A stretch of DNA of 36,872 nucleotides, taken from a virus. The stretch covers positions 1 to 36,872 of IMG/VR virus record IMGVR_UViG_3300044712_001861; one strand, 5' to 3'. The notes under the pieces were generated by a model, which saw nothing but the letters and a program-made list of their open reading frames with translations, ran no database searches and was not told the DNA's origin. The position numbers were made by a program, and so were the translations under genes. This document shows positions 16,200 through 18,765 of the stretch, in pieces (the first letter of the stretch is position 1; each line of letters opens with the position of its first letter).

Positions 16200-16613
16200 A
16201 ACTCCTTCATGTTTTGTCGCCACGGCGACTCCCAGATGCGTTCTCAGTGTTACACCCACGGTACACTAGGGCGCGTGCTGCAATCAAGTCATCTAGTGCC
16301 GGGATTCTCCGAGGAGTAGAATGGTCATCAAAAGCCGGCTTTGGCTGACAGTCCTGAAATTTTTTCAGAAAAATTTTTAGCCATGCGGGCGATCACCAGT
16401 CACCGCCGCCCAAGCGGTAATAGTTTGACCACTCATTCTCCTGGTTCCCATCGCCTCAATGCCATTATTTGATGACTTATCTGGAAATTTTTGACGCCAG
16501 ATGCAGCTGCCAACCCGCCGCCGCCAGGGGCCAAAATCCCCCATCGGGGGTGGGCCGAGGCGACCACTACGGGTAGTGGGTGGGCAGGCGAGGGACCACA
16601 AGATATTGGGGTC
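16200..16613. promoter_or_regulatory. Divergent control region between leftward and rightward operons
   Basis: No credible gene lies here. It holds a 12-bp palindrome AAAGCCGGCTTT (16331-16342), an A/T-only hairpin region (CTGAAA-TTT-TTTCAG at 16354-16368 and AAATTTTT-type arms to 16378), palindrome copy 8 (16411-16435), a CCCCC-ATC-GGGGG hairpin (16538-16550) and a CCACTAC-GG-GTAGTGG hairpin (16564-16579) just upstream of the rightward promoter. A leftward promoter must lie in or near it, but I cannot point to convincing -35 and -10 boxes. Confidence 0.6.
16411..16435 (+). repeat. 25-bp interrupted palindrome, copy 8
   Basis: Plus-strand arms are CAAGCGGTAAT (degenerate) and TTGACCACTCA. 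It lies in the divergent control region and has the rightward orientation, about 180 nt upstream of the promoter at 16614. Confidence 0.82.
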
Positions 16614-16641
16614 TTGACATTTGGGCTGGGTAGGGTATACT
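16614..16641 (+). promoter_or_regulatory. Strong sigma70-type rightward promoter
   Basis: TTGACA (16614-16619) and TATACT (16636-16641) are separated by 16 bp, close to the bacterial consensus. The predicted transcript would start near 16648 and give a leader of about 180 nt before the first rightward gene. This is the best candidate for the main early promoter read by host RNA polymerase. Confidence 0.72.
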
Positions 16642-16831
16642 TGCCGCAAGATCGGAGAACGGGACCGGGACGACCGGCCCGCCGATCCCAGGTCTTTGAC
16701 AATCTGAGTAGCACGCGCCACGCACCGATAGGGGAGCCTACCAAGGCCACGATCCGAAAGGGATGCAGGTTCACGCGCGAAGAGGGGAAGGAATCGGTGG
16801 GATGGTTGAGGGCCGGAAAGAGAATGAGACT

Positions 16832-17011
16832 ATGGACGTTATCTTGGCTCGGAAGGCAAAGGATTTGAAGAAGAAATGGACACTCATTGGAACAGCCGTT
16901 GACGACGAGGGCAAGGCCGTTGGCCAGACGTTTCGGCGTGAAGATGGATCGTTTGTTGTGGCTTTGGATGAGCCGGTAGCACCCGCGTATCAATACCTGT
17001 TGGACGACTAA
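16832..17011 (+). CDS. Hypothetical first early protein, 59 aa
   Basis: The frame from ATG 16832 gives 59 residues starting MDVILARKAKDLKKKWTLIG, with a basic helix and a beta-like second half (SFVVALDEPVAPAYQYLLDD). An in-frame ATG at 16802 would add 10 residues; neither start has a strong SD, so the start is uncertain. It is the first gene downstream of the strong promoter. First early genes of phages often encode host-takeover proteins, but nothing in the sequence shows the activity. Confidence 0.5.
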   Translation: MDVILARKAKDLKKKWTLIGTAVDDEGKAVGQTFRREDGSFVVALDEPVAPAYQYLLDD

Positions 17012-17100
17012 CCATTTTCGGGTCCTCTATCATCCTACCGATTCAAGAGAGGGATGCTTGCTACATAGGCGAGTCTCTCAAAACGACAGGAGAGACTCAA

Positions 17101-17598
17101 ATGGCGAAGAACTTTGTAGTGACGACGATCTCTGGGAGCCACATCATCCTCGAAGGGCTGACGCGCATCTCGCGGAACTACAACGAGAAGAGCGGGCAGT
17201 ATCAGGTTAGGCCCTGTTATTACACACTCAGGGTGAAGTGTCCGCAGGGCAAGGTGCTGAACGTGAACACGAGCAAGGATCTGAGCGATATCCTGGAGCT
17301 CGCGTTCGACAGCATGGCGATCAGGAGTTCGAGCTATCTCCTGGAGCGCACCACCAGCGAGCAAGGGATTCACGGCCTGTTGGGCGATGGGCTGACCAGA
17401 GTCGAGCCGACCGAGAAGGTCAAGGAAGTGACCTGGAGAGGTGGGAAGCTGGAGTTGGATTATGCAGACCTATACTCCGATGAAAAGCGCACACGAACGC
17501 CCAAGCCGCTGGATGTGAACGCCATGTCCGAGGAACAGGCTCGGGAACTGATGGCGAAGCTGATGGCGAAGCTGGGGCAGAGCGGGGGTGCAGCATGA
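17101..17598 (+). CDS. Hypothetical early protein with shared C-terminal motif, 165 aa
   Basis: SD CAGGAG precedes ATG 17101. The 165-residue product has a beta-rich core (KNFVVTTISGSHIILEGL, YYTLRVKCPQGKVLNVN), a middle helix (KDLSDILELAFDSMAI) and a charged region. The C-terminus is LDVNAMSEEQARELMAKLM followed by AKLGQ. A very similar tail (NAMS-x-E-E then LLAQL-type) ends the proteins at 28778, 21911 and 22755, although the bodies are unrelated. The tail may be a common docking helix. The stop overlaps the next start (ATGA). Confidence 0.65.
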   Translation: MAKNFVVTTISGSHIILEGLTRISRNYNEKSGQYQVRPCYYTLRVKCPQGKVLNVNTSKDLSDILELAFDSMAIRSSSYLLERTTSEQGIHGLLGDGLTRVEPTEKVKEVTWRGGKLELDYADLYSDEKRTRTPKPLDVNAMSEEQARELMAKLMAKLGQSGGAA

Positions 17599-17708
17599 GT
17601 GCCGAGGAGTTCAAGGAGGCCGTTCGGCAGATCCTTGCGAATTACTGCGAGGGGATGCTGACAGAACGGGATGTAGTGCAACAGATCGCAGAACTGTTGA
17701 TGCAGTAG
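17595..17708 (+). CDS. Small helical protein, 37 aa
   Basis: ATG 17595 overlaps the previous stop as ATGA, so it is translationally coupled. The 37-residue product (EEFKEAVRQILANY, then TERDVVQQIAELLMQ) is predicted fully helical, with two amphipathic segments. No family is recognised. Length makes it uncertain, but the ATGA overlap and regular hydrophobic spacing support it. Confidence 0.5.
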   Translation: MSAEEFKEAVRQILANYCEGMLTERDVVQQIAELLMQ

Positions 17709-17763
17709 CACACCACCATTTCACACAACCTGGGGACTCGCCTAGGTGGGAAGCATTCCTCTC

Positions 17764-17790
17764 TGAGAGGCGTAGATTGCTGGGCATGAA
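17764..17790 (+). repeat. Inverted-repeat arm, left of the gene at 17802
   Basis: TGAGAGGCG and TGCTGGGCA within this 27-nt arm are repeated in inverted form at 18034-18060, on the far side of the gene (23 of 27 identical; 25 of 27 paired when G-U pairs are allowed). It ends directly at the SD (AAAGGA) of the gene. Confidence 0.75.
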
Positions 17791-17801
17791 AGGACAGCAA
17801 C

Positions 17802-18029
17802 ATGGAATTCTGGCTAGTATGGTGTGCAAACTCCAATCCGAACATGCCCTCTCACTGGTTGTTCAGCACAAAGATTGCGGCCGAGCAGCATTGTTTGCTG
17901 ATGGAAACTGAGTGCCCGTATCTGACAATGTATGTGCAGTACTTCTCGCCGGCTGCTGTTGAAGGTAAGCGTTTGTCCTACAGCAGAAAGCGACACCAGA
18001 TCACTGAACCTCCTCCATTCCCAACATAA
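17802..18029 (+). CDS. Hypothetical small protein, 75 aa
   Basis: SD AAAGGA precedes ATG 17802. The 75-residue product starts MEFWLVWCANSNPNMPSHWL and reads FSTKIAAEQHCLLMETEC, resembling small phage proteins in which a beta hairpin precedes an Ala/Glu helix and a final strand (YLTMYVQYFSPAA). The gene is bracketed by a matching pair of inverted-repeat arms (17764-17790 and 18034-18060). Function unknown. Confidence 0.6.
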   Translation: MEFWLVWCANSNPNMPSHWLFSTKIAAEQHCLLMETECPYLTMYVQYFSPAAVEGKRLSYSRKRHQITEPPPFPT

Positions 18030-18033
18030 CATC

Positions 18034-18060
18034 TTCCTGCCCAGCAGTATGCGCCTCTCA
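18034..18060 (+). repeat. Inverted-repeat arm, right of the gene at 17802
   Basis: Complementary to 17764-17790, it starts 4 nt after the stop codon of the 75-residue gene. The sense sequence begins TTCCTGCCCAGCAG. Confidence 0.75.
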
Positions 18061-18066
18061 CCAGCA

Positions 18067-18090
18067 GTAAGTGTAGAATGATGGGCATGA
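18067..18090 (+). repeat. Inverted-repeat arm, left of the gene at 18103
   Basis: A 24-nt arm (GTAAGTGTAG then AATGATGGGCATGA) matching inverted 18329-18352 in 21 of 24 positions (23 of 24 with G-U pairs). It ends at the SD of the 70-residue gene, just as the first left arm does. Confidence 0.75.
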
Positions 18091-18102
18091 AAGGATCAGA
18101 CC

Positions 18103-18315
18103 ATGCATCTTATCGACCCACTGCGCAAGGAAACATACTTCTGTGGAGCATACAGAGGTGGAGCAGCCGAACAGGCCAGTGCTGATGTATGCCCACGATG
18201 TACAGCAGTTCAATATCTGCGTGAAGCGGAGCACATGATCCGAAACGAATCTAACGCGGATGACATCATTACACATCTTGCAATTACGGTTAGCTACATC
18301 GACAAACATCTGTAG
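18103..18315 (+). CDS. Hypothetical small Cys-pair protein, 70 aa
   Basis: SD AAAGGATC precedes ATG 18103. The 70-residue product has one Cys at 14 (YFCGAYRGG) and a CPRC pair near residue 30, enough for a partial zinc site, followed by two helices (AVQYLREAEHMI and DDIITHLAITVSYIDKHL). It is enclosed by its own inverted-repeat pair. No family is recognised. Confidence 0.58.
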   Translation: MHLIDPLRKETYFCGAYRGGAAEQASADVCPRCTAVQYLREAEHMIRNESNADDIITHLAITVSYIDKHL

Positions 18316-18328
18316 TTTAACGCACCAC

Positions 18329-18352
18329 TCCTGCCCATCATTCTGCGCTTAC
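18329..18352 (+). repeat. Inverted-repeat arm, right of the gene at 18103
   Basis: Complementary to 18067-18090, starting 13 nt after the stop codon of the 70-residue gene and ending 2 nt before palindrome copy 9. Confidence 0.75.
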
Positions 18353-18354
18353 GC

Positions 18355-18379
18355 TGAGCGGTCAAGTTGTAACCACTCA
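18355..18379 (+). repeat. 25-bp interrupted palindrome, copy 9
   Basis: Arms TGAGCGGTCAA and GTAACCACTCA. Unlike the others it has no gene start close downstream; it borders the gene-free AT-rich region. Confidence 0.88.
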
Positions 18380-18765
18380 TACACGGGACACTGTTGTCTT
18401 CGACGACTCAGCTACTATGTCAGTGCTGATCTACCATGACGGCAGACGCATGGAACGGTGTTTGTGTTGTGTTGTAAGTATTGTATTCAGTATGCGGAAT
18501 AGGGAAGGGGGGATTTCTGACTGACACATAGTACATACTTACATACAGTTGCTACTTACTATTACTACTCTAAGAAAAAAAAAAAATACTGATATTACAC
18601 ACTATGTATTAATAGATCAGTGTCCATATCCAGAATAGTATGTGTTGTAAGTATGTATTGTGTGTAGTGTGAGTCAGTAAGAAAGGGAACAGACCCTATT
18701 TCGAACACTGAATACAATACACACAACACTGTCAGTATCTTTTGTGTTGTCAGTAAAAATACTTC
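18380..18765 (+). other. Gene-free AT-rich region with inverted and direct repeats, possible origin
   Basis: No reading frame is credible here. Arms at 18469-18504 and 18694-18729 are inverted copies (31 of 36 identical) built on GTGTTGT, GTATTGTATTCAGT and ATAGGG. A third, direct, partial copy lies at 18642-18660 (GTGTTGTAAGTAT). Between them are a run of 12 A (18575-18586) and several TACTTAC words. Repeats around an AT-rich core, located among early genes, fit a replication origin or a regulator-binding region; the sequence does not decide which. Confidence 0.5.
18393..18407. repeat. Short inverted repeat, second copy
   Basis: GTTGTC-TTC-GACGAC, one base different from the perfect copy at 15962-15976, lies just after palindrome copy 9 in the gene-free region. 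Confidence 0.5.

Follow-up and report, generated by a model that had tools for sequence, protein, structure and literature searches.

Serial gene-enclosing helices behind a boxA-like element in a tailed phage, and their likeness to the leader-trailer helices of rRNA operons

Known boxA sites and paired transcript ends

Sites of the nut type are known from phages; in lambdoid phages boxA and boxB lie near the start of an early operon and serve antitermination, and we know of no gene-enclosing helix described for them. The early mRNA of T7 is processed by RNase III at local hairpins between genes, and in hok, IS10 and icaR the 5' and 3' parts of one small mRNA pair with each other, with arms over the translation start region and, in hok and IS10, fold-back inhibition. 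The combination of boxA with leader-trailer helices is best known from ribosomal RNA, and the E. coli boxA has the form TGCTCTTTAACAATTT. This element occurs at the start of the E. coli operon and again before the 23S gene, and RNase III cuts the leader-trailer helices of both the 16S and the 23S precursor (PMC10250234, PMC4807359). In these reports, the pre-23S helix measures 27 bp, a pre-16S helix of at least 17 bp is required, and the Nus factors bound to boxA are tethered with SuhB to the polymerase and thought to aid helix formation (PMC10250234, PMC4807359). BoxA sites outside rRNA are already on record, at suhB and at a gene for a ParE-like protein (PMC5725501). The SAS/ESAS elements of cluster K mycobacteriophages are another kind of phage-specific repeat near gene starts, in which 17-bp repeats mostly 4-13 bp apart lie upstream of starts (PMC3203893).

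The phage locus described here resembles rrn operons (the rrnTAC/RNase III system) in that a promoter and a boxA are followed by a long-range helix around each transcript unit, in the length of these helices and their start just past boxA, and in that a second boxA is possible, as in the relative L035. It differs in that its units enclose short protein-coding genes in loops of 0.2-0.7 kb, and no rRNA. With the lambdoid nut sites it shares the position of boxA, close to where a phage early operon starts, although an N-like protein was not identified in this phage. The outcome would be that of T7 if a phage early polycistron is split into single messages, but the T7 hairpins are local and intergenic whereas the repeats here enclose genes. 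In hok, IS10 and icaR too, both ends of one small mRNA pair; those are single genes, not serial and without boxA. The SAS/ESAS repeats recall, in the style of ESAS, the intergenic palindromes of this phage and do not resemble its gene-enclosing helices. Our searches of open-licence papers turned up no description of phage mRNA in which boxA accompanies helices that enclose genes.

Four abutting units behind a promoter and a boxA core

The window, by which we mean the whole 36,872-base virus record analysed here, comes from a tailed phage whose structural genes, among them those for terminase and head-tail connector, run leftward and whose replication genes run rightward; the gene-enclosing units are located where the rightward genes start. 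Its closest named relative is Desulfofustis phage LS06-2018-MD01 (48% identity in the terminase, 42% in the polymerase). The record L003 (15.6 kb; 15,638 bases) contains the same region, and since it is the same phage with one mismatch it provides no independent test. A nucleotide search of phage records gave no match, a search with the 165-aa gene for close relatives suited to covariation recovered the same phage alone, and no TerL relatives were found in bacterial genomes.

Upstream of the units, and like them on the plus strand, a consensus scan placed a sigma-70-type promoter, TTGACA-16-TATACT, at 16614-16641 (11 of 12 positions), and RNA folding placed a leader hairpin at 16650-16687, the position of boxB in rrn operons (the z of the region, -1.67, is modest). 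A match to the boxA core, TCTTTGACAAT, follows at 16693-16703, 51 nt past the -10 hexamer and 98 nt ahead of unit 1. A boxA shortly after a promoter on the sense strand is the mark of a boxA-dependent (Nus/SuhB) transcription unit, and the window bears this mark as a core only; a 17-nt boxA pattern with up to three mismatches found no match in the window. This leader of promoter and boxA, and the parallel to rRNA processing helices, had been overlooked in the sequence-only reading from which our analysis started.

That reading had described two small genes, each bracketed by its own inverted repeat. Both are real, and two more units (16791-17044 and 17046-17764), which it had missed, lie directly upstream. 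The four units abut between 16791 and 18352, with junctions at 17044/17046, at the shared position 17764 and at 18060/18067, and each is closed by its own helix of 23-28 bp and -37 to -49 kcal/mol. The leader arm of unit 1 (16791-16819) matches its trailer arm (17016-17044) at 24 of 29 positions, in a predicted duplex of 26 bp, and the two surround a gene of 59-69 aa (16802-17011) whose start is uncertain, being either 16802, within the arm, or 16832. Unit 2 is bounded by arms at 17046-17075 and 17735-17764 (26 of 30; 28 bp, -49.3 kcal/mol) and holds gene a, of 165 aa (17101-17598), and gene b, of 37 aa (17595-17708), joined by an ATGA overlap. With two overlapping reading frames inside one helix, what a helix surrounds is better called a translational unit than a gene. 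In unit 3, arms at 17764-17790 and 18034-18060 show 23 of 27 reverse-complement identities and two G·U pairs, giving the 25 of 27 originally reported (predicted duplex 24 bp, -42.7 kcal/mol), around an open reading frame of 75 aa (17802-18029). Unit 4 has arms at 18067-18090 and 18329-18352, with 21 of 24 identities and two G·U pairs, again the 23 of 24 reported (23 bp, -36.8 kcal/mol), around an open reading frame of 70 aa (18103-18315).

Four inverted repeats scoring at least 18 were found in 16400-18399, and just one of 300 dinucleotide shuffles of this region contained one or more. When 16740-18400 was folded as a single RNA, all four helices formed, with mean pair probabilities of 0.84-0.92 and with 27 of 29, 28 of 30, 24 of 27 and 23 of 24 positions paired in units 1 to 4. 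Units 3 and 4 resemble each other in their arms: as claimed, these have a GGGCA core in common, each left arm ends at the SD (AAAGGA), and a C-G pair of unit 3 is replaced by A-T in unit 4. By eye, the double changes between the two helices are C-G to A-U and U·G to A-U. The likeness is confined to the arms, the 75-aa and 70-aa proteins giving no match to each other at E≤1, and the earlier dismissal of a simple gene duplication holds. A search of the window against Rfam gave no match, in keeping with units that enclose no rRNA, and a tRNA search found none. A role of the arms as hairpin terminators was discarded, there being no U run at the arms.

Elsewhere in the window, an imperfect palindrome, GAGCGGTCAA-N3-TTGACCACTC, occurs in intergenic gaps at 17 sites between 577 and 33820, in many cases directly ahead of a start codon. 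The Desulfofustis phage has nine copies of another palindrome, CTATGTCCCAA-A-TTGGGACATAG, and other relatives have their own; these intergenic palindromes are probably operator-like. An AT-rich, non-coding stretch at 18469-18729, like one at 43054-43434 of L007, has a large inverted repeat around an A run and looks origin-like. The gene at 29035-30384 encodes a DNA methylase domain fused to a ParB N-terminal domain, its counterparts in relatives being annotated as ParB-like or as methylase, and that at 31048-33648 encodes a family A DNA polymerase with a uracil-DNA-glycosylase-like N-terminal domain (Pfam PF03167 at 7-154).

Helices in relatives, at other boxA sites and in rRNA controls

An alignment of terminases led to 80 viral loci, in which the 75 nt upstream of each of 1176 called genes were compared with the 95 nt downstream. 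On the early strand 13 of 238 genes scored at least 18, where swapped pairs predict 1.0. The opposite strand gave 8 of 938, against 9.1 expected, and seven of these eight were palindromes. In a scan of whole segments, the 57 early ones yielded 63 non-palindromic repeats, which formed 20 units in 12 segments, and the 45 early segments left without a unit were in many cases short. The 41 repeats in 79 late segments formed no unit in either direction, and early segments read backwards gave six apparent units. Two of the 20 units are distrusted: one in L063 is a pair of low complexity, and one in the window (33637-33837) is a palindrome pair. Tandem units occur also in L021, L035 and L077, where the trailer of the first unit and the leader of the second have 7 nt in common, and, by a separate look, in L031. 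In the whole-segment scan the helix mostly ends 11-34 nt from the start codon and 1-31 nt from the stop codon. In the Desulfofustis phage and in L025, its relative, homologous genes are flanked by no more than a 15-16-nt pair (14 of 15 and 15 of 16 positions). The gene test gave one match, with a score of 15, in Caulobacter phage Kuura, and no gene scoring 12 or more in MW202489, Mel-JY34, MW202554 or T7 (0 of 51 genes in T7).

The mismatches between arms reveal where the pairing matters. Those that are transitions become either G·U pairs or A·C mismatches in the mRNA, and our score weights both equally. In the 13 non-palindromic early genes scoring at least 18, wobble outnumbered anti-wobble 32:0 (two-sided p 4.7e-10), and at scores of at least 13 the ratio was 42:5; swapped pairs gave 369:363 and palindromic hits on the other strand 5:11. 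Since the mismatched arm positions form G·U in the message of the gene itself, selection acts on pairing of the transcript and not of the DNA. The homologous genes of L076, L068, L077 and L044 have arms of unrelated sequence, each pair self-complementary; pairing is conserved while the arm sequence changes, as in a leader-trailer helix of the rRNA type. The wobble bias, these homologues and the whole-segment fold give strong support to pairing of the 5' and 3' ends of the mRNA, which the sequence-only reading had offered as one of two options. Scoring that allowed for G·U separated the strands no better than plain scoring, since such similar arms score high under both schemes.

That reading had also held that loss of pairing in relatives would speak against it, and this was found in part. 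A search with the enclosed gene of L076 gave 15 loci, of which L086, L087, L088 and L091 are units known from the terminase set and L092-L094 keep a 14-nt pair. L089, L090 and L095-L100 retain the gene with no pair above a score of 10 and so without the long helix; since some orthologues do without it, the gene-enclosing helix is not universal. By eye, some of L089 and L095-L100 seem to have short local hairpins before or after the gene instead.

Many of the enclosed genes encode proteins of a loose group, 100-165 aa in length and with a long helix after a beta hairpin, to which clustering links the 165-aa protein of the window just remotely; the latter models poorly (pLDDT 52). The group matched no family, phage record or fold, and the confident model of the L282 member (pLDDT 87) had no fold match in PDB or BFVD at E≤0.001. 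Among the enclosed proteins, searches of Pfam and PHROGs gave no convincing match, the weak exceptions being GIY-YIG in L224 and a phage ProQ-like protein in L223.

Upstream of many left arms lies GYTCTTTGAYAATTGAATA or a close variant. In the early segments this 18-nt motif (up to two mismatches) occurs 11 times in sense and once in antisense, the latter in the trailer arm of L008, and its first letter lies 3 nt before the left arm in L008 and L035, 12-20 nt before it in L076, in L027 and at unit 2 of L035, about 23 nt in L013 (measured by hand), 80 nt in L077 and 243 nt in L031. The boxA core is found 13 times in sense and twice in antisense in early segments, with 1.7 expected per strand, and twice in sense and six times in antisense in late segments. 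L008, L027, L035 and L076 match the full boxA pattern. Promoters with 0-2 mismatches lie 24-74 nt ahead of boxA in the window, L008, L021, L027, the first site of L035, L063 and L076. In most relatives the leader strand starts at boxA+0 to +26. In the window the gap is 98 nt instead of 2-24 nt, boxA occurs once, at the head, and units 2-4 lack their own; in L035, boxA occurs again before the second unit.

We take the motif to be the rrn boxA, on the evidence of its bacterial occurrences. Scanning bacterial genomes with a 19-nt form gave at least 117 stretches; among the 80 loci read, 18 are ahead of a 16S start and eight in a 16S-23S spacer, so that at least 26 have an rRNA context, and 39 lie elsewhere. 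The remaining 15 have a contig end within 500 nt, which is to be expected because assemblies break at rRNA. Six of the eight spacer loci had enough downstream sequence to serve as rRNA controls. In three of the six, the strand next to boxA finds its partner some 3 kb further downstream, the pre-23S leader arm beginning at boxA+12 in L111 (score 19) and L185 (14) and at boxA+1 in L128 (32). The other three, L106, L161 and L157, scored 10, 10 and 8, the sequence of L157 being incomplete. Six of 38 bacterial boxA loci outside rRNA scored at least 14, against 2.75 expected.

The same boxA was found in 111 stretches of viral contigs, of which 80 were read, giving 71 sites with enough sequence. A helix scoring at least 14 is present at 37 of the 71, where random positions in these contigs lead one to expect 4.3-4.5, and 34 have no long helix. 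At 26 sites the helix encloses exactly one SD-led ORF, compared with 0.47 expected. It begins just past boxA in these 26, which have 24 distinct arms and a wobble ratio of 36:4, and four of them are on contigs of the terminase set (L268 twice, L288 and L293). With the Firmicutes-type boxA, 9 of 64 sites enclose an ORF (six distinct arms, 0.4 expected); with the gamma-type it is 2 of 77, one of which (L349) has hairpin-rich arms, and we draw no inference from these. In L224, L226, L267, L278 and L283 a near-identical arm, GAATATTGATAGTTGGT, follows boxA around different genes, the cargo comprising GIY-YIG, membrane-like and unfamiliar proteins; arms that stay the same while the cargo varies may represent another kind, resembling cassettes. 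L229, L241, L244, L251, L252 and L266 have the arm CAATTGAATATCGTATGTGATATGATAT after boxA, identical in all six, and enclose no called ORF.

Explanations and meaning of the paired arms

The explanation that we favour, with a probability of roughly two in three, is that the early mRNAs of these phages are laid out like rRNA operons and recruit Nus/SuhB and RNase III, yielding separate end-paired mRNAs. On this reading the region is the start of the rightward operon, with a promoter, a hairpin, a boxA and four units with their own leader-trailer helices. Host NusB-S10, with NusA, NusG and SuhB, would bind boxA and stay on the polymerase, making it resistant to termination, and the leader strand, held near the polymerase exit, would pair with the trailer strand. 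Host RNase III would then cut each helix to release one-unit mRNAs whose ends stay paired and may thus be protected, the helix closing just outside the SD and the stop codon. The sequence itself shows the helices, the enclosure of one translational unit by each, the selected pairing of the sense RNA and a boxA-like element at the head, and helix and boxA are well supported. That factors bind and that the helices are cleaved we infer by analogy: Nus/SuhB-assisted helix formation and RNase III cutting are expected because the order of the elements, their spacing and the helix length match those of rrn. Against this explanation stand the boxA of the window, a core match 98 nt from unit 1; the 34 viral boxA sites and some orthologues with no long helix; the 45 early segments that gave no unit; the 39 bacterial boxA loci in other contexts; the three rRNA controls that lack the pattern; and the six apparent units in early segments read backwards.

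It is also conceivable, though rather unlikely, that the helices stay in the mRNA and tie the ends of each cistron together, for protection from exonucleases or for recycling of ribosomes from stop to start, with boxA serving antitermination only. The short distance between the helix and the start and stop codons, which cutting alone would not need, and the local hairpins that by eye seem to replace the helix in some relatives, would fit such a role; the length of the helices and their start just past boxA match rRNA processing helices instead. Tying of the 5' to the 3' arm of a small mRNA, with left arms that reach the SD in units 3 and 4, also recalls the translational switches of hok, IS10 and icaR. 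We consider a switch improbable, because the SD lies outside the arm in most units and a separate switch for each of four unrelated genes, in addition to boxA, would be unparsimonious.

The other option of the sequence-only reading, that the arms are the ends of small mobile gene cassettes, or a variant of it with recombination sites acting in DNA, draws some strength from the exact abutment of the units and from the GAATATTGATAGTTGGT arms around different genes in L224, L226, L278 and L283. At this locus it is unsupported, and we regard it as very improbable: DNA-level ends give no reason for strand-specific G·U mismatches (32:0), the arms are private to each unit with no shared terminal sequence, and late genes have none. 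Chance, or a by-product of the intergenic palindromes of these phages, hardly comes into consideration. Pairs of palindromes do produce inverted-repeat hits, as in seven of the eight minus-strand hits at 18 or above, but the units are non-palindromic, and the shuffles, the swapped controls and the viral test starting from boxA contradict such an origin.

We see an even chance that early operons imitating those of rRNA form a widespread class among phages, in which the host's rRNA antitermination complex and rRNA-processing RNase serve to divide a polycistron into separate, end-paired messages, and that the enclosed gene often belongs to an undescribed family of small proteins that may act on this machinery. 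If the same arrangement truly surrounds ordinary genes in several phage groups, phages use the rRNA-making apparatus of their hosts for mRNA. It would then offer a simple test of what such helices do without the building of ribosomes, and a route to finding and annotating the first-expressed genes of phages.
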